DNA from: Dacryopinax spathularia
Lineage: Eukaryota; Basidiomycota; Dacrymycetes; Dacrymycetales; Dacrymycetaceae
DNA: 64,000 bases
Assembly (NCBI GenBank): GCA_037974965.1
Contig: JBBPFI010000010.1
Location: 620,001-684,000, forward strand
Direction: 5' to 3'
Part shown: positions 3,653 through 25,000 of the stretch, piece by piece
How positions within the stretch are numbered: the stretch's first letter is position 1
How the letters are laid out: the number at the start of each line of letters is the position of its first letter
Made by a program: the position numbers and the translations under genes
The notes under the pieces: generated by a model
What the model was told of the DNA's origin: nothing
What the model saw: the letters and a program-made list of their open reading frames with translations, nothing else
Databases searched by the model: none

Positions 3653-6600
3653 TCACAATATATCCGCATATTCTTCTTCTGAGAAGCCGCCGACCTGCAC
3701 GTTCCTCATCCTGTCGATCACAGCCCAATGGCTCCGGCCTTCCGCACCAGCCCGATCGTTTTTGCCGACCTCCACACGACCAACTACGCCTTTGATCCAC
3801 TCCACGTAGATATACAGCATGTGACCCATCTTCTCGAAGGCTGCAGCGGTACAAGGTGGCTCTCGCACCCCTTGCGTTTGCTGTATTGCCGCCATTCTGA
3901 TCTCCTCGTGGACATCACCGATTTCAAGGTCGAATACGAAGAGGTGATGGAGCTGCCCGTATTTTGGACCGTCAAAGCCACAACCTGGAGCAAATTCAAA
4001 CTGCCAAGGACAATAAACGAATGTACTCCTGGAATAATGCAACCGACTCACTCGGACGAATGACATGTCTCTCACTCCACTCGGAATTCGCCCACCATCG
4101 TTATTACCCACCCCTCTGGTCCTCCCTGCCGGCAGACATTTTGCGGCGTGAACTGTATCACCTCGCGGAGAGATCCTCAGTTTGCCCCACTGCACAACGG
4201 TCCGCGGAACTCGAGGAAGGAGTTGTGCGACTGTGAAACGGAAGCGGTATTTCCTTTCAAGGCGCTCCGCGATCCTTGCGCGCTGTGTGCCGGTCAACTT
4301 CAAGGTTCTTGTCGGGGAGAGCAGTTGATACTCTTCGTCGTCTTCGTATTCCGAGTGGGATCTTTTGGCCCACCGTTTGCGGTCCAGCAACAAGCACAAC
4401 TGTTGCCATTGTTCTCGCTCGACAATATGGCGGTCAATGCCCGGATAAGGATTCCTCCTCAACGTAATGCGCTGTTGAAGAAGTCCGCAGTATCGCTCCA
4501 TCGGGAACGCCCAATAACAACCAACCGGTCCCGCCCATTCGATATAGTCGGCTAGATGCAGAAGTGCGTGTATTGTCCCTGGGCACAGATCAACCCTCTC
4601 GGGCCGACCCTTGTAGTAAAGTCTTTCATAATCGACGACCCAGTCTGCGATGCTCTTGCGTATGGCGTCCACGGCTCCGGTTTCATACCGAAAAGCGAGG
4701 CACGAATTCACCCATTTGACCATTGACACAAAATGGTCGTAATAGGCCCGATTCCGCCACTGGTTGCAGAGCACGGACGATCCAATGTACTGGATGAATA
4801 CCATCCATGCTTCAGCAGAGTACTCGTGCCGCTTCTCAATTGGGTGAGGTACCCGGCGTCCAAAACCTGAAGGTATTGTGTCGCCACTCCTCTCTATCGC
4901 CTGGTTGATGGCGGTGAGGTTGGCCTTCTGCAAAACGAACGGATTCTCTTCGGGATTCTCATAACCGGCTGCCCGTCCCGCCCACAGGTCGTACAGATGC
5001 GGCATGACATTTTCAAAGATAAGATGCATAAAGTCGAGCGGGAACGACCAAGGCCAGATGATACTGCCGAACTCCGCCCAAATGCTTCGACCTTTAATCC
5101 CAGTGGATCGAGCGATTCGGCCTTGTTCAGCAAGTGTCCGCGCCTTGGCGAGCTGGGATCTGGCGTCCTTGAATGATTCTTCAGTGCGATTCGGTAACTG
5201 GTCGGCTGTGTAACGTGCCGGGGAACCATCCGGGAGAGTTGCGAATCGTGTTCGATCCAGAGGGACGTAGTGGACATGAGAACAAGGCCCGGTAACACCC
5301 ACAATGCCGCAAGCTCGGCAGGGCCTGAAGCCGTTGTGTCCCTTCATGTTCATCAGCTTTGCCTCGGCTGGCATGTCGCCGAACAGGAGGATAAGGTGGG
5401 CGCGAAGGGTGAACTCCTCCTCCGCGAAGGCATCCCAAGCGCGTACCCCGCGAGCCAGCTCGGCCAGCTCCTCTGCGAGGGGGAAATGGAAGGAGTCGCT
5501 GTCCTTCATCTGCTTCGGGCCGGGGATGCAGCCTAAGCCGAGCAGATTGTTCGTATGGTTGCGAACCTCTATAGGAAGGTTGTAATTGACCAGGACCGTT
5601 GGCCAAGCCGTATATCGTCGTTTTCGGAATGGAGCGAACCCATCGAAGGACAAGCCAAGAGCGATCTCTCGCCGGTCGCTGAAGTATCGTGTTCCAAGCC
5701 CTTTGCTGTCAACCGAGATCTCCCGTTCACGGAGCTCTCGGTACAGTCTGCTGTCGAAGATATCCTCTATAGCTGTGACAGGACCTGTTGCGGGTGTGTT
5801 GATGCGCTCCTTGCCCAAGATTCGCGCGCGTTCCTTGTTTGTGTACTGGCTCACCAGTCGCGGAATGAGCGGCACATACGACCATTGGCGAGCTGGAATC
5901 TTTTTATCGACATCCTTGTATCGAGGGAGCCGACAAAAGGGGCAAGACAGGCTGTCCTTGTACTCGCCGGTATAGCTGATGCACGAGTTGTGACAGCAGT
6001 CAAACTGCCTAGGCTCAACACCGGAAAGCTGGATCACGCGCGCTTTCACGCCGGGCCAAAGAGGGAAGAGTTCAGTCCCGAAGTGCTTCTGCAGCTTCTC
6101 ATACTGGGCGAGCGTCAAGCCGCTGTCCACCCTTGCACCGAAAGCGATAAGTCTTGCGTCGTCCTCAGGCGAGAGAGTGTCTGTTCGGCTGTCAGTATAC
6201 TTCCGCGGTGCCGTACAAGTGGTCTCACTCGGCGCATCCCTCAGTCTCTCCTCGAACTCAGCAAGCAACACCTGCGCAGCATATTCTTCCTCATCTTCTC
6301 TATCCACAATGGCGTGGCCTTCGTAATCCTCGTCTTCTCCATGATGATCGCTCAACTCTACATCGTCCTCCTGGTCGAGCACGTCATTGCTAATTTCCTG
6401 CCACTCTCTGGTCGTGACTTCGGCTAAGTCCTGCGGTGCTTGACTTGGGCTAGGCGTGGCGTCAAGAGTGGCTGGGTCGACAGGTCCGCTCAGTTCGTCT
6501 GCTGCTTCCCCGGACGTTGGATCCAGCAGGCCTTCTTCGATTGGTGCCTTTGCAATTCGTCTGGCTTGTTTCCTCCGTGCGGACTTGAATCCACCTTTCT

Positions 6601-14751: not shown

Positions 14752-14759
14752 CACAACGG
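14752..14759. repeat. Target-site duplication, left copy (CACAACGG)
   Basis: The 8-mer CACAACGG occurs immediately outside both ends of the KDZ element (here and at 24,993-25,000), each copy exactly 9 bp from the perfect inner core of the inverted repeat. Zisupton-type KDZ elements are reported to make 8-bp duplications, which agrees. Confidence 0.88.
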
Positions 14760-14894
14760 CAGAAGGGACAGGATAGGGGCGAGAACGGCCAACGGCCAAC
14801 GTTTGGCCGGCGGAACCTTTTTTTGGCCGACGGAGGTTTTTTTTGGCCGACGGAAGTAATTAGAAGTAGTTAAAATTAAAAGCTTTGCTTCCGC
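14760..14894 (+). repeat. Terminal inverted repeat, left
   Basis: The outermost 9 bp match the right end poorly. Next come the perfect 23-bp core at 14,769-14,791 (CAGGATAGGGGCGAGAACGG...), a shared GGCCGACGGAGGT (14,825-14,837, repeated once as GGCCGACGGAAGT) and a shared TTTGCTTCCGC (14,884-14,894). The three blocks occur in the same order in the right repeat, inverted. Confidence 0.9.
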
Positions 14895-14941
14895 TTTACC
14901 TGGCTTCCTTAGTCTTCTGCTTCCCCAGCACAGCCGCGTTG

Positions 14942-14992
14942 TACCGCGCCTACCGCTTCTACCGCGCCTACCGCACCTACCGCACTTACCGC
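14942..14992 (-). repeat. GCGGTA array 1 (subterminal left, 6 hexamers)
   Basis: TACCGC at 14942, 14951, 14960, 14969, 14978 and 14987: six perfect hexamers at an exact 9-bp period with variable 3-nt linkers, 182 bp from the element's left end and 17 bp before the transposase ATG. Confidence 0.95.
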
Positions 14993-15008
14993 AGATTGCG
15001 CTCTCTCA

Positions 15009-17386
15009 ATGAATCTTCATCAGCTTGTTCACTCATTATGGCCTCATCTGTCACGCCTTGGTCATCTTCCCGCCCACATAGCGCTCAACCTTCTTTCTGT
15101 CGTTCGTCACTGGCAGCCACTACTTACATGGCTCGCTTCCCTGCCTAAGGACACCCCACCAAGAGCTCTCCCTCCTGCACTCTCTACAAGCTTATCCACA
15201 CTTTTCCACATGGCAATCCCCGACGTCCAGCTTCTCTGGGGGGCACTATTTCCTCTCGTGTGGCAAACTGGTCCAGTGGGACATCAGCAGACACCTTCTC
15301 TGCTTAACCCTGTCCAACTTCTTATTGCCACTGCTCCCCAAGTCGAAATGGGTAACTGTCTGTCTAAATTAATTGACCATTGCTGACACCTTGCAGGTGT
15401 CGAAGAGTTGTTCCCCCCTACTCGCGTCTGCACACAAGAAGACTGCCCAGCACCTGGACGACTCGTTGATGCACGCCGCTTTTCTGCCCACCTTTACACC
15501 TTGCACCAGGGTGTGCTCCCTGTCTTTATCACCTGCCTCCGATGCAAGCGTATGTACCATTCCAGTCCCTCTGAACCACGCCCTGAATGTGTCATAGGCT
15601 GTCATTCAACATATTTCCTCAATTATGTCCGCAGAATGGATTCTGACGGTGTTCAACGGCGCTACTACTACCTTGGACGGCCGGCCATTGTCCAGGTTGA
15701 GAAGCACATTCTCATCGACCGCGAACTGGCCTTTCACTTCAAGCGTCAAATGTTGCATGCTCAGTAAGTCCATCGTCATAGCCCATGCGGTATCGGCGGT
15801 ATCTGCGGTATCCGCGGTACCTGCGGAACGACGTTGAGTTTTTTCCTGTGTACCGCACATACCGCATATACCGCCGGTACCGCCGCTACATTCTGTCGGC
15901 CTCAAAGCCGTTAGACAAAGCTAACTTCCTCCGTAGTACCAGTGGACAAGCACTCGAGCGTATCTATATGGAATCACTGTCCTATCGTGCCGATTTTGGC
16001 ACTTGTTGTCCTCCCATCCTGCGTCGCCACTACATTTGGGACTGCTTCTACCTCGATGCCTTGCTCCAGCATCATGATGAGCAGGGCAGTATCCTCGTCC
16101 TTCTGGAGCACCCTGAACATGGCAACCCAGCAGGCGTGCAAAGGGCAAGACTCAAGGAAGCCTTACGAGTGAGGAATGCTTTCATGGCTGGCACTGGTCA
16201 GGAGCTTTATGCTCATGCCTGTGATGGCTGCCTGCGTGTGGTTCAGCGAGATGGCACCCATTGTTAGCTTATTCTGCCCTCTTCCCCACAGACTTTGACT
16301 GACATGGTGCTACAGACACCATTCATGCAGCTATAACCGATGGTGTCGCCATTGGTCATCCCTGCTGTGCTGTGCATAACTGCCATGGGGAACTCTCACC
16401 CATATCGTCCCGCTTCTGCCCCATGCATCAAGCGCTGAATCAAGTGTGTGGAGTTGAAGGGTGCACTCAAACAGTCCGCACAGGCGCTTTGACATGCAAA
16501 GACCCTTTGCATAAGGCTATGGAAGACGCCCATGATGAGCAGGCGAAATCCATGTTTCAGCTTGCTTGACGACTGGCTCTGAATGGGCCCAGACAGCGGG
16601 AGGGCCACCACCGGCACAACGACGATACCGCATTTACCGCCTGTACCGCGTCTACCGCGCCTACCGCCGGTACCGTACGAAGCTCCACCACTCCCCTCCT
16701 TGCCCTTCCTGAAGGCTTCGAGTCGTTGTCTCACCTACTCCAGGTGGATTCCAGAATTTCCGGGGGGAAACGACCGCAAAAGGCTCAGTTCACTCGCGCT
16801 TGGACACACAATGAGCAGTTGATTGTCCGTCCTTGTGGTATCATTGTGGCTAGGGCCACATTCTATGGTGCCGAGGCGATCTCCTCAGTAGCGGTATGTC
16901 CTTCAACCATGAGTCCAAGGAGAATACTAATACAGCATCTTCCAGGATATGTTACGCGCGGTCTTTCCAACTAAAGGATCCGTTCCTGATATCCTCTTCT
17001 ATGACAACAATTGTCAACTACGACGGCATCTGCAAGCTCTGGGAGACTCCCATTTCGAACGAATGGGTCAGCCAGTTGATGTGTTCCACTTCAAAGCCAA
17101 GCATAGCGAAAACGACACCTACTGCGGTCAACATTGCAACCCCCTCCTCTTTCCAGACATCTATGATGCTCAGAAGCAGAAGTGGCACTTCAACTCTTCT
17201 GCAGCGGAGATGGTGAACGCCTGGATTAATGGGTACCATGCCATGGTCAGAGACCTCGATGCTGTGTGTGCAGAGTTCTTTCTCGATGAGATGGTGAAGG
17301 AAAGAAACAGGTTCACAGAGAGACAGCTCCGCGAGAGAGGTTTGAACCCACACAGGGTTCCCGAAGAGGTCTTACAAACGCAGTAG
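15009..17386 (+). CDS. KDZ (Kyakuja-Dileera-Zisupton) transposase
   Basis: The exon model is 15009-15351, 15397-15549, 15598-15763, 15937-16262, 16316-16893 and 16946-17386, all in phase (668 aa). The N-terminus has the KDZ Cys pairs C-x4-C and C-L-R-C-K-R-C-H-x-x-Y, then R-R-Y-Y-Y-L-G-R-P-A-I-V-Q-V-E-K-H. Candidate DDE residues are Asp256 in W-D-C-F, Asp542 in Y-D-N-N-C and Glu610 in N-S-S-A-A-E. Other signatures are the Cys/His insert (CAVHNCHGELS...RFCPMH...CGVEGC...TC) between the first and second acidic residues, WTHNEQLIVRPCGIIVARATFYGAEA, VDVFHFKAKHSENDTYCGQHCNP, and FFLDEMVKERNRF. One problem: codon 414 (16,567-16,569) is an in-frame TGA. It disappears only if a weak 201-nt intron (16,554-16,754, donor GTTTCA) is spliced out, so this copy is either interrupted or uses that intron. 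The introns carry GCGGTA arrays. Confidence 0.9.
15787..15883. repeat. GCGGTA array 2 (facing inverted pair, intronic)
   Basis: GCGGTA at 15787, 15796, 15805 and 15814, then TACCGC at 15851, 15860, 15869 and 15878. The two halves are in mirror 9-bp register, so the intron RNA (15,764-15,936) or the DNA strand could fold into a segmented hairpin with four 6-bp stems and a loop of about 31 nt. Confidence 0.95.
16567..16569 (+). other. In-frame TGA in the KDZ transposase
   Basis: The triplet TGA falls in the transposase frame between ...MFQLA and RLALNGP, 57 nt before array 3. Either the copy carries a nonsense mutation or the segment 16,554-16,754 is removed as an intron. The open frame otherwise continues through array 3 to the WTHNEQ catalytic exon. 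Confidence 0.7.
16626..16676 (-). repeat. GCGGTA array 3 (6 hexamers)
   Basis: TACCGC at 16626, 16635, 16644, 16653 and 16662, plus TACCGT at 16671. It lies either in an exon of the transposase (read as Thr-Ala-x repeats) or in an alternative intron. Confidence 0.95.
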
Positions 17387-17432
17387 TAGTATTCGGTAGT
17401 AATGAACGATGTGCCCGCCCTTTCCGTTTCGT

Positions 17433-17529
17433 GCGGTACCCGCGGTAGGCGCGGTACCTGCGGTTGCTGAAACGGAATTCCGAGAAGTCGACAAGGTACC
17501 GCAGATACCGCAGGTACCGTCGATACCGC
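17433..17529. repeat. GCGGTA array 4 (facing inverted pair, between genes)
   Basis: GCGGTA at 17433, 17442 and 17451 (GCGGTT at 17460), then TACCGC at 17497, 17506, (TACCGT 17515) and 17524. It sits between the transposase stop and the next gene's start, so it could act in terminator or promoter DNA. Confidence 0.95.
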
Positions 17530-17669
17530 TTCCGCCCTCCACCCGTCCGGCTAAGGGCCTTGCGTGGCTGCCTTATGTAAGGCGGTTCCAATTAACCGCC
17601 GGCGGTTTTCCATGTCTTCCAACGAATTCCAAGTCCTTCTCGGTGGCATCAAACACACCAGTCTGCTAC

Positions 17670-19585
17670 ATGTCTGAACTCAAGGCCCTTCAAAATGAGG
17701 GCATCCGCCAGTACTGGAAGCAGCATCCAGAGCTGATGAATTGTGCTGTGGAGGATGTGGAGCACTGGTATTGTGAGAAGTGTGGGCGTCGCTGCATGCC
17801 TGTCACTGTGGCATTTACTGCAGGACACTGGGGATCTTTATTCACTAAGGTGCGCCAAGGTTGGTGGCCTGGGGAAGGAGGAGAGCTCATTCGCACGATG
17901 CAGTGCTACTGGGGCCATGTGTTTGTCTGGGTTTCCCAACAGATGCCTGCGCTGCAGAAGGAGGTGTTCCAAACGATCTACGACGGCTCTGTGGATGTTC
18001 AAGAGACTCCGGAGCATTCTGTGGGCTCTCAGCAGCCTGTTCAGGACTGGCATAATGGCGTACCTCGTGGAATTCACTGGGGGCCCTTGCCCTACTTGCA
18101 TGGCAGTAGCACCACAGCTCTTGGCGCACCAGGCAAGTGCGGCGAGTGCAAGACCCGACCACCGCACTCCAAGTGTACCCGAAACATGTGCAAGGCTTGC
18201 TGCATTGCCCAGCAGAAGACCACTGGCTGCAACAACCCTGAAGTCGATGAAAGCGGTTTATGCGGTACCTGCGGTAGGCGCGGTACCTGCGGTACCTTGG
18301 CGCGTGTGTGCCCCGCCCCAGGACACTCCGGTGAGACAGTGCCTGCTCGTGTATTGGTCCTTACACTGATCATCGAACAATAGTGAAGGGGAAGGACAGC
18401 GGTGGTGGTCTGGATTCCTCCACCTCGAGTAATGCTGGTGGGGGAGGAGCCCCTATTGAGCCCTCTTCTGCCCGGTACCGCCGCTCTTCAGTCGCTGGAA
18501 ATGTCACTCCTCACTATGTTGGCAAGGCGCTACACCCATCCTGGGGGGAGAGGCTATCCGGCGGCGCGTCGCCGTCCGGAAGTCCGGTGGAAGCTATACA
18601 GCGAGCGGGAGAGCAGGACAAAGCGTCCCGATTGTTCACAATAGTCATACTTCAAGCGGTGAGTGTTGTTATCCATGGCGGTACATGCGGTACAAGCGGT
18701 ACCCGCGGTTTCGACGGTAGCATGTTGACTTCACGGAAAAACAAGCTACTGCGGCTACCGCGGGTACCGCTGATACCGCGCACCGGGAAACTTCGTCTTT
18801 CTGATCTCCCTCCTTTCCAGAGCTGCCCTCCAGTCGAGCTACCCAATCTGGAAGCACGTGGACGTCCGCCCGCCCTGTTTACTATGATGGAACACTGGCT
18901 CCCGTCGGTCCTGGGCCGCATGGCCCAAATCTGTGGTGTGGATACATCCTCCCATGCCTGGACTGTGCCTGTGCTGGACAAGAAGAAAGAACGATGGGTG
19001 GAGATCGGTCCCGGCCAGGTCATTTCACTGTTCAAGGAGGAGCACATCATTATCAGCCCTTCCGCTCTCCCTCTGGATGATCAGCATGTTCAGGAGGAGC
19101 TCCAACTCTTCTCTGTGCAACAATGTCTCCCCAAGGCTAAGCGACCTCGATCCACCAGTCAGCAATTCCTCCACCTGCCAGATACTCCCACCAAGAAGGC
19201 TCGCTCTCCCTCAAGGCTCGATCTCCTTGTGATCTCGGACAGCTCAGACGATGAGCCTTTGGTGATTTCACCCCTTGCTTTTAAAGCCTCAGGGCGCGAC
19301 AAAGGAGCAACGTGGTCCAGGGGTAGCTCTTTTACCGATGTCAGTCGTGGAATGGAGCAGTACCACACCCTTCGCCGAAGTGGAACTCTGTCAGGGGAAG
19401 CCCAACGCATCGCCTTTCCTGGCAGCAACATTCCGGAGCGCACGCTACGCCGTCACTACGGAGTCTGGAAGCAAGCGCCCTTGACTTTACTGAATGAGTG
19501 GACCGCTCGCTGGGGCCATCGTCGCTGGGTTCAGTTCATAGCAGAGGTTGAGGACACCACGAAGGTGTCTAAGAAGGAGGTATGA
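17670..19585 (+). CDS. KDZ-element gene B: Cys-rich protein with SUMO-interaction-like motif
   Basis: Exons 17670-18330, 18384-18658 and 18821-19585 join in frame to 566 aa. The start was chosen as the first ATG (MSELKALQNEGI) after array 4. Residues about 30-45 have a zinc-knuckle-like WYCEKCGRRC. Residues about 150-180 contain KCGECKTRPPHSKC...MCKACC, a dense Cys cluster likely to bind zinc. The 195-209 segment is encoded by array 5 (Gly-Thr/Cys-rich). The middle domain is tryptophan-rich (MEHWLPSVLGRM, HAWTVPVL, KERWVEIGPGQVISLF). Near residue 430 the sequence LLVISDSSDDEPLVIS is a hydrophobic core followed by phospho-acceptor and acidic residues, like a phospho-SUMO-interaction motif. The C-terminus is helical and rich in Trp/Arg (YGVWKQAPLTLLNEWTARWGHRRW). 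I do not know the function. Position and Cys clusters suggest a transposition accessory or host-interaction factor. Confidence 0.8.
18253..18294 (+). repeat. GCGGTA array 5 (exonic in gene B)
   Basis: GCGGTT at 18253 and GCGGTA at 18262, 18271, 18280 and 18289, 9-bp period. Translated in gene B as a Cys-Gly-Thr-rich stretch. Confidence 0.95.
18678..18779. repeat. GCGGTA array 6 (facing inverted pair, intron of gene B)
   Basis: GCGGTA at 18678, 18687 and 18696 (variants at 18705, 18714), then TACTGC at 18747 and TACCGC at 18756, 18765 and 18774. The pair fills most of the 162-nt intron 18,659-18,820. Confidence 0.95.
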
Positions 19586-19662
19586 TGTGAATACGCCGTA
19601 GAGAGAACACTTTGTTGCGGGCGGTAGATAGAAATGCCCATGTTTTGGACAATCGGCAAGAG

Positions 19663-19765
19663 GCGGTATGTGCGGTATCCGCGGTAGGTGAGCTAGCGAC
19701 CATTGAGGGGTCCGTCCGAAATTGCGGTATCGACGGTACCCGCGGTTTCCGCGGTATCGGCGGTT
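19663..19765 (+). repeat. GCGGTA array 7 (two same-strand blocks, intergenic)
   Basis: GCGGTA at 19663, 19672 and 19681, a 37-bp gap, then GCGGTA at 19724 and 19751 with one-base variants at 19733, 19742 and 19760. A single GCGGTA also occurs at 19621. It lies between genes B and C. Confidence 0.93.
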
Positions 19766-19973
19766 TACTGGTTGTGCGGAACCGCTGAACCGCCATCTGG
19801 ACCCTTATGAAAGTCTCCAGTTCGATGACTGGAATGCGTCTTCCCCCCTTTCCGGCCAACCACCATCTTCTCAGATCTTCTTCTAGCACAGTCACCTATC
19901 TCTGGCCTCTCACAGTTAAATTCCTTTGCCAACAATCATTTCTGTTCCCACACCAGGTATCAAAGTGTGACCA

Positions 19974-20659
19974 ATGTCCCGTCAAACTGGTGCCTCCCGA
20001 AAAGGACCTCCCAACCCAGCAGCCAGCAGAGGTACCAATACCGTCGATACCGCGGGTACCGCGGGTACCGCCACTACCGCGCGTACCGTCGCTACCGGCG
20101 CTGAGCCGGCCCCCTTCACTGCTGCTGAGCCTGAAGCGGCTCGACGCATCCCCATGGCGAATTCGGTGAGCAATCTATTGGTGGTCACACAGAAGTTCCA
20201 CTTAATGTGTGCCCATCCAGTGTACATACTGCGTCAGGCGTGGATTAGAATGCTTTCGGCAGCCAGGGAAGCGCTTCAAAGCGTGTTGGCACTGCCAAAG
20301 GGCACAAAAACAGTGTTCAGCCGGCCCAACAAATGGTAGTTCCACACTCGCATACATACCCCACTCACTCACCATTTGCAGATGCACGCCGAGGCCGTGT
20401 GATTCGGCGAGGACCGCAACACGGTGTGGCTACTTTGAAGGCTTATACCGCGGGCTCTAGCAATGTTATGCAAGGCCAGTTAGGTACGTGCGGTAGGTGC
20501 GGTACAAGCGGTACAAGCGGTACTCATGCCTTGCCAGTTGCCCTTGTTTCAGAGACCATGGAAGAACTCAGGCAGGCCGCACATGCGCAAGAGAGGGCCA
20601 ACCGAAATCTGCAACTTGTACTGGAGGCCACCTATGGACTCCAGAGCCAGCAGCCATGA
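19974..20659 (+). CDS. KDZ-element gene C: small zinc-cluster protein
   Basis: Three exons, 19974-20165, 20221-20335 and 20382-20659, give 194 aa. The middle exon is exactly a zinc-cluster cassette: C-T-Y-C, six residues, C, ten residues, C-W-H-C, six residues, C. This is the C-x2-C-x6-C-x10-C-x2-C-x6-C spacing of GAL4-type Zn2Cys6 proteins. The basic residue pattern differs from classical GAL4 (Glu, not Lys, precedes the third Cys), so base specificity cannot be read off. Residues 22-42 and 138-149 are translated GCGGTA arrays (Thr-Ala/Gly-Thr repeats). The C-terminal about 35 residues (TMEELRQAAHAQERANRNLQLVLEA, shown here only by its ends TMEEL and LEATYG) form a helix suited to dimerisation. 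It is paralogous to gene D, and the zinc-cluster exon has the same intron phases (0 before, 1 after). Confidence 0.83.
20039..20098 (-). repeat. GCGGTA array 8 (exonic in gene C)
   Basis: TACCGC at 20048, 20057, 20066 and 20075, with TACCGT at 20039 and 20084 and TACCGG at 20093: seven units at a 9-bp period. Translated as Thr-Ala-x repeats in exon 1 of gene C. Confidence 0.95.
20490..20522 (+). repeat. GCGGTA array 9 (exonic in gene C)
   Basis: GCGGTA at 20490, 20499, 20508 and 20517, all perfect at a 9-bp period, in exon 3 of gene C (read as Cys-Gly-Arg/Ser-Gly-Thr). Confidence 0.95.
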
Positions 20660-20761
20660 TTAGGAATGCCGTGTAATATCATGAGCATTGTAATGTCGTA
20701 TCCGGTCAAATGTGAGTATGCCCCTGTGTGTTAAATGTATTGTGTCAGACCACAAATAGTT

Positions 20762-20876
20762 GCGGTAGCGGCGGTATCAGCGGTATCCGCGGTACAGCCG
20801 GTACCTGGTTGGCCCAATGGCTGCAGAGCAGCCCATGGCCTGCGGCGACGACTACCGCTGATACCGCTGATACCGC
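20762..20876. repeat. GCGGTA array 10 (facing inverted pair)
   Basis: GCGGTA at 20762, 20771, 20780 and 20789 (CCGGTA 20798), then TACCGC at 20853, 20862 and 20871. Just downstream of gene C's stop. Confidence 0.95.
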
Positions 20877-21500
20877 ACCATCGAGCCCCACCTGGTGTGG
20901 TCGAATGATGGGAGCCCTGCTCTTCGACATCCCAACAGTGTGCCCGGTGGGTCGTATACTTACCATGGTCAACACCTGGCCTGGCCAGTCACGGTCCAAG
21001 GGCCATGCGTGTCTACCACTCCCACCACACCCACACGCACTATGCCCTATACTTGAGGGACAAGATTGAGGCTCGAAGGGAACGGTCTAATTTGCTGCAT
21101 TGCTCTTTATGTTTTCCACATGCATCCAATCAGTTCTTGCATCTCTAGAAAGCACTGGAATCACAAATGACGGTCAAAGGAGAAGTGGTTATTTGCAAAG
21201 TATACTTATGTACTTTGTTTCAAACCAGGTTGCACTGCAAGCAGAGGCAGCCCCAGAGGAGATGAAGCCACAATGCGAGACTGAGCGCATAATCCATGCC
21301 ATGTGCAAAGGAACAGAGAACAAAATGAGATTGAAAGTGAAGAGCATGTTACTTAGACAGACAACACACACTGGTACATCAATTGGGCTCATGCTAAGGG
21401 AAAAGACAAAGCACAAAATTGAATGTCACGGTGCAGCTCACACCATATCCCTACACTGGTCACTCACCACTCATCACACATCCCCTTGATGAGCCAGTGT

Positions 21501-21557
21501 TGCCAGGAGCTCTGTGACAGCTATTGACCCTTCGCTGCTTCAATCGCCGGTGAGCTA
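21501..21557 (+). repeat. 57-bp direct repeat, copy 1
   Basis: About 80% identical to 21,801-21,857 by eye; both contain TTGACCCTTCGCTGCTTCAA or CGACCCTTCGCTGCTTCAAT. Both copies could be translated as S-S-V-T-A-I-D-P-S-L-L-Q-S-P, so a duplicated exon end is possible. Confidence 0.8.
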
Positions 21558-21559
21558 GC

Positions 21560-21856
21560 TTGTCTGAGCTTCAGGATATTTTGCTTGCTTCTCCTCCCAT
21601 GAGCAGCTCACGCCCACCTAACAACCAGCGTCTGCCACTGCCCCTGAGTGGGGATTGCACCCTGTTTGAACTTGTGTGTCCGGACCAGTGGATCCCTAAA
21701 GGGACAGAAGGCAGCAAAGGCCTGCATTTGGCTGACCCTTACGACGTCCTCAAAGTATCCTTTGGGCCTCAGCGCAGGCTGAGCCCTGTACCAACTACTC
21801 CCACAAGTTCTGTTACAGCAATCGACCCTTCGCTGCTTCAATCACCAGCGAGTTAG
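21560..21856 (+). CDS. Doubtful short ORF in the array-free core
   Basis: 98 codons (MSELQDILLASPPMSSSR...), rich in Pro/Ser at both ends with a more protein-like middle (CTLFELVCPDQW). It ends inside the second copy of a 57-bp repeat. No family recognised. It could be an exon of a decayed gene or chance. Confidence 0.2.
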   Translation: MSELQDILLASPPMSSSRPPNNQRLPLPLSGDCTLFELVCPDQWIPKGTEGSKGLHLADPYDVLKVSFGPQRRLSPVPTTPTSSVTAIDPSLLQSPAS

Positions 21857-21857
21857 G
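21801..21857 (+). repeat. 57-bp direct repeat, copy 2
   Basis: Second copy of the repeat at 21,501-21,557, 300 bp apart. Confidence 0.8.
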
Positions 21858-22305
21858 GAGCTGGGAAGCATTGGACTTGAACTTCAAGTCCCGTGCTCTG
21901 AGGATGCACCAGATCTCACTACCATTCCATACCTTCATTGGTGAGGGCGGTGTGCCAGTCACTATAATATTCCAGTATGCACCCAAAGGTACTCTCTGAA
22001 TGTGGGCCTGCAGTGGGAGCCTGGCCAATGGCCATTGCTGCTGCAACATCTTGTACCAACTGTGCACCCACCTAGCCTGGTTACCTGTGTGTGTTCATCC
22101 TTGCCTATACCGCACTGCACCTTACTGCCAGCCCGTCTCAGATGGACCAGATGATAGCTGCAGCACTTCCAGTCCTGCCCTCTGCCTCTCCAGTCACTCC
22201 AACCATGCCAATGTCCAGCTTCATGCATGAAGAGGGATAGAGAGATGAGTGTCATTTAGGCAGACAGATACCGAACCGGTTGCTTGCTTGATCTACATTG
22301 TCCAA

Positions 22306-22502
22306 ATAGGATATATGCTCATGAAGATGACCTGCATGCACAGGCTAACAGACATCTGCTCTCCAACAGGAACAGATGTTCATCATACCATACTCACAGG
22401 AGAATGTCCGGCAAACTGCATATATGCCAATGAAGAAGACTAACAGGCCTCCAGTCTCTAACAGGAACAGATGTTCATCATGGCCCTTCCACAGGAGAAT
22501 AT
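22306..22502 (+). repeat. Two-copy tandem repeat of about 85-100 bp
   Basis: Copy 1 is about 22,310-22,408 and copy 2 about 22,421-22,502. Both run from ATATATGC through AACAGGAACAGATGTTCATC to CACAGGAGAAT. They differ by one indel of about 12 bp plus substitutions. Confidence 0.8.
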
Positions 22503-22616
22503 CAGCTGTAACATGTCATTGAATGCACCATTGCCAATACACTGCAGGAGTGCTCTTGAACTGCAAGCACACCCCGTTGACAGGTGAGGCTGGGAGAACA
22601 ACTGCTTGGGGTACCG

Positions 22617-22731
22617 GCGGTTTGCGCGGTACCCGCGGTATCCGCGGTATGGTCGGTATCATACCCTCGAAAGGACTTAAGCAAATCACGCCTCGAGCTA
22701 CCGCAGATACCGCGGATACCGCTCCAACCGC
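22617..22731. repeat. GCGGTA array 11 (facing inverted pair)
   Basis: GCGGTT 22617, GCGGTA 22626, 22635 and 22644, TCGGTA 22653; then TACCGC 22699, 22708 and 22717, and AACCGC 22726. Intergenic, downstream of gene D. Confidence 0.95.
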
Positions 22732-22881
22732 TTCGCCTGTTATACGCTTGGCTTGCACGCTTTCCCAACTAAAAAGACGGGGAATTCCGGGCTGAACACG
22801 TCGCATTACTGCACCCGACCTACTCCTACACAAACACCAGGGCATTTCTAACTTCCGCCCCTCTGGCCCCCGTTGCGCCTC

Positions 22882-22914
22882 TACCGCCGCTACCGCCACT
22901 ACCGCCATTACCGC
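22882..22914 (-). repeat. GCGGTA array 12 (abuts stop codon of gene D)
   Basis: TACCGC at 22882, 22891, 22900 and 22909. The last hexamer is immediately adjacent to the gene D stop codon (22,915-22,917), so the 3' UTR begins inside the array. Confidence 0.95.
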
Positions 22915-24675
22915 TCACCCCTCGAGCGAGGTCAGCGTGCTCGTGCTGTGGCCGTCCTCCGTCTCCGGCCCGTCACTCGGCAACCCCTTCCACTCTTCCT
23001 CCTCCTCCTCTTGCTCCTGCGCCTCCTCCTGCTCCTGCTCCTGCTCCTGCTCCTCCTGCAGCTCCTCCATCCGCTCCAGCTCCCGCTCCGCCTTCTCCAG
23101 GATCTCCTGGACGTGGCGGGTACCCCGGGAGGACGAGGGTGTCACCCTTGTCCTCTTTTCGGGCGGAATCCACCGTCCTGCACGCCCGTCTAAGAAACAT
23201 GTTAGTACCGCTGGTACCGCGACTACCGCCGATACCGCTCACCTTTCTGGGCCACATCGCAGGTCTTGCCCAAGCAACGGCAGGTCCAGCACGCCTTGCT
23301 CAGTGCACCCGGCGCACGAAAGCAGTAAGTACCCTTTTGGATACAGTGAGTGCACTAGAGAGGTAGTAGTTAGTTTAAATATTAGTAATTCAATGATAAC
23401 AATGCTTACCCTCGTGGGAAAGAGGCGGCGCTGGTCTGGGGGCGGAATGGGAACGCTTGCTGGGTCCTTGTTACGCCCTGCAAGCTTCTGGGTTGGGCGG
23501 AGGACACCATCCTCAATCAAGTCCTAAGTCAGAGTATCAGTACCGAAGCTACCGCGGATACCGCCGAAACCGCAGAAACCGCACTTACGTCGTACGGCCC
23601 TCCCATGGTGCGAATCGCACCATTGTCCTCGCTGGGCACTCCCCGCTTGTGCCCACGGCTGGGGGTAACGGGCGCCGTCGTACGCGCCTTCTTCTTCACC
23701 TCCTGCACCTCATCCTCATCTTCTTCTCCTTCTTCTCCTCCTTCTTCTCCCGCGTCCTTCCCCTTCCCCTTCTTCTCCTTGCCAGATCGCACGGGCGGCT
23801 CGTAGCTCTTGTCCTGGGCGCGATCGTCGCCCGAGTCGGAGGAGGATTCGGGGGGAGCCTTGCCCTTGCCCTTGCCCTTGCCCGTACCGGTGGTACCGCC
23901 GGTACCGCCTGTACCGCGTGTACCGCGCCTACCGCCAAGCATGGCGGCAGTCTTGTCACGAGCTGCCACAGCAGCACCGCGGCGGGGACGGCCCTCCGGC
24001 ACGTCGGACGTGTCGGCGGGGAGAGGACCATCCGTCTGAGCGGGCGTCCTCCCCCCTGCGGTGGTCGCTGGGGTGGCTGGGGCGGTGGGGAGGGTGGTGG
24101 TGGTGGTGGCCTTGGGGGCCTTCGCCATCTTGCCGATCTCGAGGGCGGAGATGTCGAGCCCAATCGCGGGGCCCACAGGGATGTTGGCGCTTTTGAAGTT
24201 GGCCTTCACCTCCTCCTGAGTGTAAGAGTTAGTAAGATAGATACCGCTTGTACCGCCGGTACCGCTGGTACCGCGGATACCGCAATGGGCGCACCGATTG
24301 CTGAAACAGCCAGACAGCCTGCAAGTTGGGGCCGAGCAGCTTTGCCTCTCTCTCCGCCCACTCCCCCACCCTGTGCGGCGCAATACGAGCCGCTGAGACC
24401 GCAAAAGACTATTCAAACGTTAGTAGATATTATGGAGGTAGAAAGATAGGGCTTACCCTGTAGGTTCCAAGCTGATCCGAGCCAGCATCAACCCCCAGGC
24501 CGTCGAAGTTGTCCACCATCTGCTTGCGGAGGTCGGCGTACTCGGCCTCCGCGATAAGCTGCGACGGAGTGCGCTCTGGCGCCGTCGGATTCCCGGTAGA
24601 GGCGGTAGGCCCGGTATCCGCGGTTCGCGCGGTACTGCGAGTGGTGCGGCGATTGGGGTTGGTAGGGCCAGGCAT
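22915..24675 (-). CDS. KDZ-element gene D: zinc-cluster/coiled-coil protein
   Basis: Six exons in genomic order from the start: 24457-24675, 24295-24408, 23589-24215, 23410-23523, 23243-23354 and 22915-23189. All borders are GT-AG and the phase is consistent (486 aa). Exon 5 is a zinc-cluster cassette with C-T-H-C, six residues, C, ten residues, C-W-T-C, six residues, C: the same GAL4-like spacing as gene C, and alignable with it (CTxC...G..CFRxPG...KACWxC). Exon 6 encodes a Glu/Gln-rich coiled coil (VQEILEKAERELERMEEL...). Exon 3 is long, basic and disordered, with Lys/Gly repeats and an acidic stretch, like a chromatin-tethering or nuclear-localising region. Arrays 15 and 17 are translated in exons 3 and 1. 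Arrays 13, 14 and 16 almost fill introns 5, 3 and 2, while introns 1 and 4 have none. The likely role is a dimeric DNA-binding regulator of the element. Confidence 0.85.
23206..23238 (-). repeat. GCGGTA array 13 (intron 5 of gene D)
   Basis: TACCGC at 23206, 23215, 23224 and 23233, occupying 33 of the 53 intron bases (23,190-23,242). Confidence 0.95.
23541..23582 (-). repeat. GCGGTA array 14 (intron 3 of gene D)
   Basis: TACCGA 23541, TACCGC 23550 and 23559, AACCGC 23568 and 23577, inside the 65-nt intron 23,524-23,588. Confidence 0.93.
23885..23935 (-). repeat. GCGGTA array 15 (exonic in gene D)
   Basis: TACCGG 23885, TACCGC 23894, 23903, 23912, 23921 and 23930. Read on the minus strand as Gly-Gly-Thr/Arg-Gly-Thr repeats (about residues 205-222 of gene D). 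Confidence 0.95.
24242..24283 (-). repeat. GCGGTA array 16 (intron 2 of gene D)
   Basis: TACCGC at 24242, 24251, 24260, 24269 and 24278, all perfect, inside the 79-nt intron 24,216-24,294. Confidence 0.95.
24602..24634 (+). repeat. GCGGTA array 17 (exonic in gene D)
   Basis: GCGGTA 24602, CCGGTA 24611, GCGGTT 24620, GCGGTA 24629. Read antisense in exon 1 of gene D as Thr-Ala-x repeats (about residues 14-29). Confidence 0.93.
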
Positions 24676-24810
24676 TGTTGACAGTTGAGGACGTTGAGAG
24701 CTGAGCTAGCGGTGGTAACGAGGAGAGAGGAGACGAGATAAAGGAGGCGCAGCGCGCAGAGAGAACACACGCGGAAGCGCAAAACATGCGGTTCCGTGCT
24801 TCTTACACAT

Positions 24811-24843
24811 GCGGTACACGCGGTATCTGCGGTACCGGCGGTA
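24811..24843 (+). repeat. GCGGTA array 18 (subterminal right)
   Basis: GCGGTA at 24811, 24820, 24829 and 24838 (plus GCGGTT at 24788), 149 bp from the element's right end and upstream of gene D. Its orientation is inverted relative to array 1, so the two subterminal arrays are symmetric with the terminal repeats. Confidence 0.95.
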
Positions 24844-24867
24844 CTTTCGGTTTCCCGCAAGGCCGCT

Positions 24868-24992
24868 GCGGAAGCAAACGGAAACAAAACGGAATTAAAT
24901 TACTATATACGGAATCTAATCTAAAAATCTACCTCCGTCGGCCAGAACGGGATTATATTCTGGCCGTTCTCGCCCCTATCCTGACGGTTCCC
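24868..24992 (-). repeat. Terminal inverted repeat, right
   Basis: Contains, in inverted order, the blocks of the left repeat: GCGGAAGCAAA (24,868-24,878), ACCTCCGTCGGCC (24,931-24,943) and the perfect 23-bp core at 24,961-24,983. Confidence 0.9.
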
Positions 24993-25000
24993 CACAACGG
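24993..25000. repeat. Target-site duplication, right copy (CACAACGG)
   Basis: Exact match to 14,752-14,759; same 9-bp distance from the 23-bp inverted-repeat core. Confidence 0.88.

Follow-up and report, generated by a model that had tools for sequence, protein, structure and literature searches.

We analysed a 64-kb stretch of the Dacryopinax spathularia genome (the window, C10:620001-684000) that contains a complete KDZ-type DNA transposon. Two genes of this transposon, C and D, encode zinc-cluster proteins, and runs of the hexamer GCGGTA lie along most of its length. We found that the hexamers are conserved between transposon copies, that the zinc-cluster exon of C is under purifying selection, and that a zinc-cluster gene and the word GCG(G/T)TA occur together in a second element class, a retroelement with long terminal repeats (LTRs). 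With a probability of roughly 0.6, C and D are element-encoded, VANC-like zinc-cluster regulators recognising GCGGTA, and a related protein does the same with GCG(G/T)TA in the retroelement; binding, dimerisation and effects on chromatin or transcription are what we infer from these observations. The original prediction had placed a reader and its sites on one transposon. Its genomic part is borne out by the presence of C and D in all three full copies, the conserved sites and the second family, and the binding itself is predicted from sequence.

The genome searched comprised 29.2 Mb in 24 contigs (C1, C4, C8 and so on) of a single genome. Gene models of the C10 copy were drawn by eye from splice consensus and the comparison of copies. 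Three full copies of the transposon were found, on C10, C4 (98% identity to C10) and C8 (81-93%), together with two deletion derivatives on C1 (774 bp) and C16 (773 bp).

Genes C and D both encode the cysteine (Cys) pattern C-x2-C-x6-C-x10-C-x2-C-x6-C, as originally predicted. This exact pattern occurs twice in the window and in none of 100 Markov-simulated windows, and a slightly wider six-Cys pattern had no match in 203,536 bases of other sequence from the same genome. In each gene, the zinc exon opens at the first Cys directly after AG and closes in phase 1; the distance from the last Cys to this end is six residues in C and five in D. The clusters of C and D are paralogues (47% over 34 residues, E 2.8e-6). 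When the genome was searched with C, rather than D, as the query, all six matches at E up to 10 fell on C and D of the three full copies. Judged by eye, both proteins could plausibly form a helix or coiled coil beyond the cluster. A protein search with C found no relatives at the thresholds used, in a collection that may be poor in fungi, and a PDB sequence search with C gave no match at E up to 10.

Comparison of the C10 and C8 copies revealed 2.5 non-synonymous changes over 90.8 sites and 7.5 synonymous changes over 23.2 sites in the zinc exon of C. The ratio of non-synonymous to synonymous divergence (dN/dS) is 0.07, and thus the zinc cluster of C is under purifying selection. Elsewhere in gene C the ratio was 0.64 (exon 1) and 0.27 (exons 3-4). 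The zinc exon of D showed 0 non-synonymous and 2 synonymous changes; D is little informative on selection because the copies are too similar.

GCGGTA occurs 92 times in the transposon, where trinucleotide composition predicts 9.2, and 27 times in the remaining 53.8 kb of the window (22.0 expected). Among same-strand neighbours up to 60 nt apart in the window, 60 of 66 spacings are exactly 9. CGG-N6-CGG direct repeats, which the original prediction had recognised in the arrays, number 101 in the transposon and 36 in the flanks. The C10, C4 and C8 copies carry 22, 22 and 23 runs, and nearly all positions correspond. Genome-wide, we identified 128 three-unit in-register matches (reversed control: 0), of which 127 are accounted for: 123 in the three full copies, 3 in the derivatives and 1 at C7:1316640. 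The 109 units of the C10 copy hold 1.3-1.9 bits at the six hexamer positions, a figure inflated by accepting units with at least 4/6 hexamer matches, and 0.03-0.32 bits at the three spacer positions.

Between C10 and C8, 35 of 718 hexamer columns differ (4.9%), against 101/291 spacer columns (34.7%) and 958/8963 other columns (10.7%); between C10 and C4, the counts are 7/736, 35/300 and 150/9184. In each of three regions, the C10 and C8 hexamers are less divergent than other columns (P 0.016, 2.5e-5 and 0.0018). Furthermore, 77 of the 83 intact in-array hexamers of C10 are still intact in C8, and CpG loss affected 3/114 sites in hexamers compared with 48/435 elsewhere. The fast spacers suggest turnover of units, and the fixed hexamers suggest constraint.

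By our gene models, 18 of the 22 runs are either intronic or outside genes, two fall in coding linkers of C and D, and the remaining two lie inside genes A and B, in exon or intron. Five places, given in Table 1 with both plus and minus units, hold convergent pairs of runs (GCGGTA, then TACCGC) about 22-49 bp apart. Four-unit arrays of the forms (GCGGTANNN)4 and (GCGTTANNN)4 would be candidate targets of the zinc domains. A four-unit array scan of viral contigs gave 54 stretches.

The hexamer and a zinc-cluster gene in a retroelement family

The array at C7:1316640 lies in the intron just before a third zinc-cluster exon, CDFCTDRKQDCLISHEGGQCTACHTRRKTC. This exon encodes C-x2-C-x6-C-x8-C-x2-C-x6-C, starts with the first Cys, behind an AG, and has its end in phase 1, and its intron positions match those of C and D. 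It is followed by ERRGRVRG, whose counterpart in C is DARRGRVIRRG. The gene has six copies in the genome, between which the zinc exon shows dN of 0.08-0.12 and dS of 0.37-0.58. A protein search with its product found no relatives at the thresholds used, again in a collection that may be poor in fungi.

A same-strand pair of 446-bp repeats is present at each of the six places. Five of the bounded elements measure 10.6-10.7 kb; the C7 element is longer, at 20.5 kb, and apparently owes this to a nested insertion. The C7 copy appears to be interrupted (L028 1-3860) by an element with repeats of about 345 bp, which has several copies elsewhere. The terminal repeat, read in the C7 copy only, has the form TG..CA. 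This repeat (L028 6513-6958) holds 8 GCGKTA sites (K, G or T) in 446 bp, two of them on the same strand 9 bp apart.

Gene order and pol were read in the C13 copy only. Here a minus-strand open reading frame of 1209 aa contains RT_RNaseH (3.9e-16) before Integrase_H2C2 (1.3e-15), which is the Ty3 order. Reverse transcriptase motifs were seen by eye, and no Pfam reverse transcriptase or integrase core model matched this copy at E 0.01. The zinc gene is antisense to pol, between pol and the nearer terminal repeat, and its introns could therefore survive retrotransposition. On these features, we assign the second family to Ty3/Gypsy-like retroelements with an antisense zinc gene. None of the CxC5, KDZ or gene B matches listed, which are lower bounds, falls within the six retroelements. 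Among genes A, B and C/D, the C/D type is the only one seen in both hexamer-rich families.

The examined parts of the six retroelement copies contain 4.2-7.1 GCGGTA per kb, compared with 0.50 in the window flanks and 0.51 in the rest of L028. In the pol of the C13 copy, GCGTTA occurs 20 times (2.87 expected) and GCGGTA 12 times (2.93 expected), the expectations coming from synonymous shuffles that hold protein and codon usage. The two words rank 1 and 2 of 1617 hexamers by over-representation, and none of 2000 shuffles reached 12 GCGGTA. Across eight stretches of the family, GCGCTA is absent and GCGATA occurs 0-3 times (0.4-2.2 expected). The KDZ transposon has GCGTTA 0 times against 1.7 expected.

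The sites are also conserved in this family. In pairwise comparison of the zinc-gene introns, 323 of 420 hexamer columns are identical, compared with 1757 of 2862 others. Between C13a and C17 (72% identity), 10 of 13 motif sites are retained, against 0.21 for other 6-mers (P 2.5e-5); this is one of six non-independent comparisons, the weakest being C7 with C13a (8/11, P 0.02). At four homologous sites, GCGGTA and GCGTTA are exchanged between copies. The commonest short spacing of hexamers is again 9 bp (5/9 in C7, 3/13 in C13a); in C17 and C13b, 10 bp is just as frequent (2/5 each).

The transposon and other CxC5 loci

The features of the transposon are given in Table 1. Homology to the C4 and C8 copies begins and ends at its limits. 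The 23-bp inverted core, CAGGATAGGGGCGAGAACGGCCA, has 10 genome occurrences at 3 or fewer mismatches, 9 of them exact, corresponding to the five insertions. The 8-bp target duplication is exact at C10, C8, C1 and C16, and 7/8 at C4. C and D accompany the arrays in all three full copies. The two derivatives have the arrays only: they retain the ends and hexamer runs, and no match to C, D, B or CxC5 was found there, which fits sites acted on in trans.

Table 1. Features of the KDZ-type transposon, in positions of the 64-kb window
Feature	Position	Strand	Basis or remark
KDZ-type DNA transposon, complete, 10,233 bp	14760..24992		homology to C4 and C8 copies begins/ends here
Target-site duplication CACAACGG, left	14752..14759		exact 8 bp
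Target-site duplication CACAACGG, right	24993..25000		exact 8 bp
Terminal inverted repeat core, left	14769..14791	+	exact match
Terminal inverted repeat core, right	24961..24983	-	exact match
Gene A, transposase	15009..17386	+	outer limits approximate; Pfam CxC5 E 1.4e-19; open reading frames
Gene A, CxC5 exon	15387-15767	+	Pfam CxC5 E 1.4e-19
Gene B, Cys-rich protein, at least 2 exons	17670..19582	+	boundaries approximate; matches confined to three copies
Gene C, 171 aa, start codon 19974	19974-20165, 20221-20335, 20382-20483, 20553-20659	+	exons; stop-free in C4 and C8 copies
Zinc-cluster motif of C	20221..20316	+	Cys pattern; dN/dS 0.07, C10 vs C8
Gene D, about six exons, start codon 24675	22915..24675	-	C-terminal acidic coiled-coil-like stretch (by eye)
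Zinc-cluster motif of D	23259..23354	-	exon without amino-acid change among copies
Run, 7 units, upstream of A	14942..15001	-
Runs, 5 plus + 4 minus units, intron of A	15787..15883
Run, 6 units, within A	16626..16676	-	exon or intron not settled
Runs, 4 plus + 4 minus units, between A and B	17433..17529
Run, 5 units, within B	18253..18294	+	exon or intron not settled
Runs, 5 plus + 4 minus units, probable intron of B	18678..18779
Run, 4 units + further hexamers, upstream of C	19663..19756	+
Run, 7 units, inside exon 1 of C	20039..20098	-
Run, 5 units, last intron of C	20481..20522	+
Runs, 5 plus + 3 minus units, downstream of C	20762..20876
Runs, 6 plus + 4 minus units, downstream of D	22608..22731
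Run, 5 units, directly after stop codon of D	22873..22914	-
Run, 4 units, intron after zinc-cluster exon of D	23206..23238	-
Run, 6 units, intron of D	23541..23591	-
Run, 6 units, glycine-rich coding linker of D	23885..23935	-
Run, 5 units, intron of D	24242..24283	-
Run, 5 units, upstream of D	24811..24852	+

Gene A has a CxC5 domain, which is associated with KDZ transposases, and a catalytic-type exon whose resemblance to KDZ was judged by eye; none of the 52 genome matches listed for the Pfam KDZ catalytic model (PF18758) falls in the transposon. The CxC5 exon, used as a protein-search query, gave no relatives at the thresholds used, in a collection that may be poor in fungi. Inverted ends and an 8-bp target duplication are also found in Zisupton; in Kyakuja families the duplication is 7 bp long and the ends are not inverted (PMC12730594).

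The C8 copy is mosaic in its divergence, with dS near 0.5 in gene C and near 0.04-0.1 in the exons of D. Its gene B has in-frame stops, and its gene C has none. This copy (L023/L024) also contains an additional insertion of about 560 bp near the left end. Between the arrays of the C1 derivative (L025 about 5315-5435), and also in C16, there are telomere-like TTAGGG repeats. In the window, the 1.7-kb stretch 20877-22607, which separates C from D, holds neither arrays nor clear genes; it is mostly present in C4 and C8 and is possibly an old nested insertion.

For comparison, we examined five other CxC5 loci (20 kb each), in which no C/D-like gene was found. GCGGTA occurs there at 0.10-0.75 per kb, with no significant excess. 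Three of the five have short-period arrays of other words (L042 2167-2268 and 2708-2852; L047 3063-3336; L039 from 3794 and from 5397), namely GTGGGA with an 18-bp period, AGAGTGGGA (18) and a 16-bp unit with TGCGGCTCTCGAATCA; no C/D-type Cys pattern was found at these three loci. Short-period arrays as a general KDZ trait were set aside, as some arrays at CxC5 loci may be coding repeats.

Candidate readers of the hexamer

The original prediction drew on GAL4-type proteins and on HAP1, whose site consists of CGG direct repeats six bases apart with TA three bases after CGG. It had already pointed out that TA is placed differently here, and in GCGGTA the TA is indeed directly adjacent to CGG. 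The six-Cys spacing of Pfam Zn_clus (PF00172), C-x2-C-x6-C-x(5-12)-C-x2-C-x6(-8)-C, covers C, D and the retroelement protein.

Several results weigh against a zinc-cluster reader shared by two families. The Zn_clus cut-off of 21 bits was missed by C (11.8 and 14.4) and by the retroelement protein (9.6), and D gave no match. C and D have Gly at the position of GAL4 Lys18 (numbering from 1d66), four residues past the second Cys. Similarity searches matched neither C to the retroelement zinc protein nor the reverse at E up to 10, so that the case for their homology is made by the Cys spacing, the positions of the introns and a short RRGRV-like linker. For C10 and C4, divergence at hexamer columns is not significantly different from that at other columns in the three regions (P 1.0, 0.80 and 0.37). 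Two comparison CxC5 loci have a weak GCGGTA excess (15 vs 9.6, P 0.07; 12 vs 7.9, P 0.10), and the comparison covers 5 of 25 other CxC5 loci, of which the C1 and C8 ones, with equal CxC5 scores, may be one family. All four G/T exchanges follow one split, C17/C13b against the rest, and may represent few events. Finally, there are two families only, and the link could stem in part from common descent of the gene plus its introns; the independent families number two because the second was reached through its array.

Strict membership of the GAL4/HAP1 group is thus not supported, given the missed cut-off, the Gly and the different place of TA. We classify C and D as zinc-cluster-like, not GAL4-family members, because of the sub-cut-off scores and the Gly at the Lys18 position. 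The predicted loss of the CGG-contacting Lys is correct, and the Glu and Tyr assigned to its place sit at Lys20. In all six retroelement copies, the Lys18 position is Lys. According to excerpts of PMC5559640, GAL4 Lys18 contacts guanines of CGG and Pho7, which is without this Lys, still binds a CG-containing site; absence of the Lys in C and D would therefore not be fatal.

It is unlikely that the arrays are transposition sites recognised by the transposase, through its CxC5 zinc domain, or by the gene B protein, with C and D doing something else. Arrays near both transposon ends would agree with this, as would the Cys-rich nature of gene B and the transposase and the two derivatives of about 774 bp, which retain just ends and arrays and have 8-bp target duplications. 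Against it stand runs that cover most of the transposon beyond the end regions, a hexamer-rich retroelement with no CxC5, KDZ or gene B among the matches listed, and the lack of a significant GCGGTA excess at the five other CxC5 loci.

We give low odds to a host DNA-binding factor that reads GCGKTA, with both families gaining sites independently. Such a factor would account for a word common to two unrelated element classes, in a genome with at least 24 further zinc-cluster matches. It does not explain why both families have a zinc gene, 127 of the 128 genomic three-unit arrays lie in the two families, and the window flanks are near expectation.

Equally low odds go to arrays with no reader at all, produced by slippage or conversion among short repeats, the zinc link reflecting a single gene exchanged between families together with its introns. 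Slippage would homogenise all nine bases of the unit, whereas the spacers are near random and six positions are fixed. Spacers that evolve faster than the remaining transposon are what unit turnover predicts, and intron positions are common to C, D and the retroelement gene, with hexamers inside those introns; the retroelement hexamers, however, are also found in pol coding sequence beyond codon choice, and the G/T exchanges preserve the motif. That the arrays act at the RNA level, in intron splicing or by pairing into hairpins, is very improbable: many runs are intronic, several directly after a donor, and the five convergent pairs could fold, but other runs flank genes on either side, fall in coding linkers or occur in gene-less derivatives, and 12 of 22 are outside convergent pairs.

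Under the favoured explanation, C and D would be small zinc-cluster proteins with six cysteines, a basic linker and a probable dimer helix. They would recognise GCGGTA, usually as direct repeats at 9-bp pitch that lie in the introns and flanks of the transposon's own genes and in disordered coding linkers. Such a protein coat would most likely keep the promoters of the transposon open, as transcriptional self-activation or anti-silencing, in the way of VANC for VANDAL. The related retroelement protein may do the same job via GCG(G/T)TA. Transcriptional control or silencing escape fits both families. Because the deletion derivatives retain the sites, these may also assist assembly of a transposition complex, a second role like that of TNPA in Spm/En. 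Recruitment of a transposase, one of the functions originally suggested, is unlikely to be the role common to both families, because the retroelement is without a transposase of that kind; as the sole role, it was set aside for the same reason.

A more tentative proposal, to which we give somewhat less than even odds, is a portable module in which reader and hexamer code passed between KDZ and Ty3/Gypsy-like elements. Each element would write GCG(G/T)TA along itself, in pol via synonymous codons, and encode the reader; Gly or Lys at the Lys18 position would match the G-only or the G/T word.

If the favoured explanation is true, VANC-style self-recognition is no plant oddity, and fungi arrived at it through another type of protein. 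It would work in cut-and-paste and copy-and-paste elements alike, explain the role of small zinc-cluster proteins in fungal transposable elements, and make silencing escape testable with one probe.

Relation to known systems

In the open-licence papers searched, we found no description of such a zinc-cluster and hexamer system. The fungal Zn2Cys6 proteins (GAL4/HAP1) resemble C and D in six cysteines at GAL4-like spacing, a basic linker, a probable helix and the HAP1 spacing of CGG repeats. C and D differ in being encoded by transposable elements, and no Pfam transcription-factor domain was matched in them.

In plant Retand Gypsy elements, TRP28 is an antisense gene between pol and the 3' LTR with predicted DNA binding, and about half of the elements have tandem repeats in the same region (excerpts of PMC11963269). 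The second family is arranged alike in the C13 copy. TRP28 has another domain and belongs to plants, and the excerpted text claims no link between protein and repeat word (PMC11963269).

TNPA of the CACTA element Spm/En is likewise an accessory element-encoded DNA-binding protein with repeated short sites, and non-autonomous derivatives retain the sites and move in trans. TNPA sites are subterminal, in contrast to the runs along most of the 10-kb transposon described here (excerpts of PMC2613891).

A close likeness is also seen to VANC of the Arabidopsis VANDAL elements. According to excerpts of PMC5735166 and PMC10398659, a transposon-encoded protein occurs there with dense one-orientation motif arrays in introns and upstream of the genes of its element; the VANC21 motif is the nine-base YAGTATTAY, the tandem units turn over fast, and the motif varies between families. 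For VANC, both the binding and a loss of DNA methylation have been measured (same excerpts), whereas the present system is known from its sequence. Here, too, short motif arrays occupy non-coding parts of the element's own genes (18/22 runs). VANC is not known to be a zinc-cluster protein. What sets the present system further apart is a fixed hexamer at 9-bp pitch, which extends into coding sequence and is common to two element classes.

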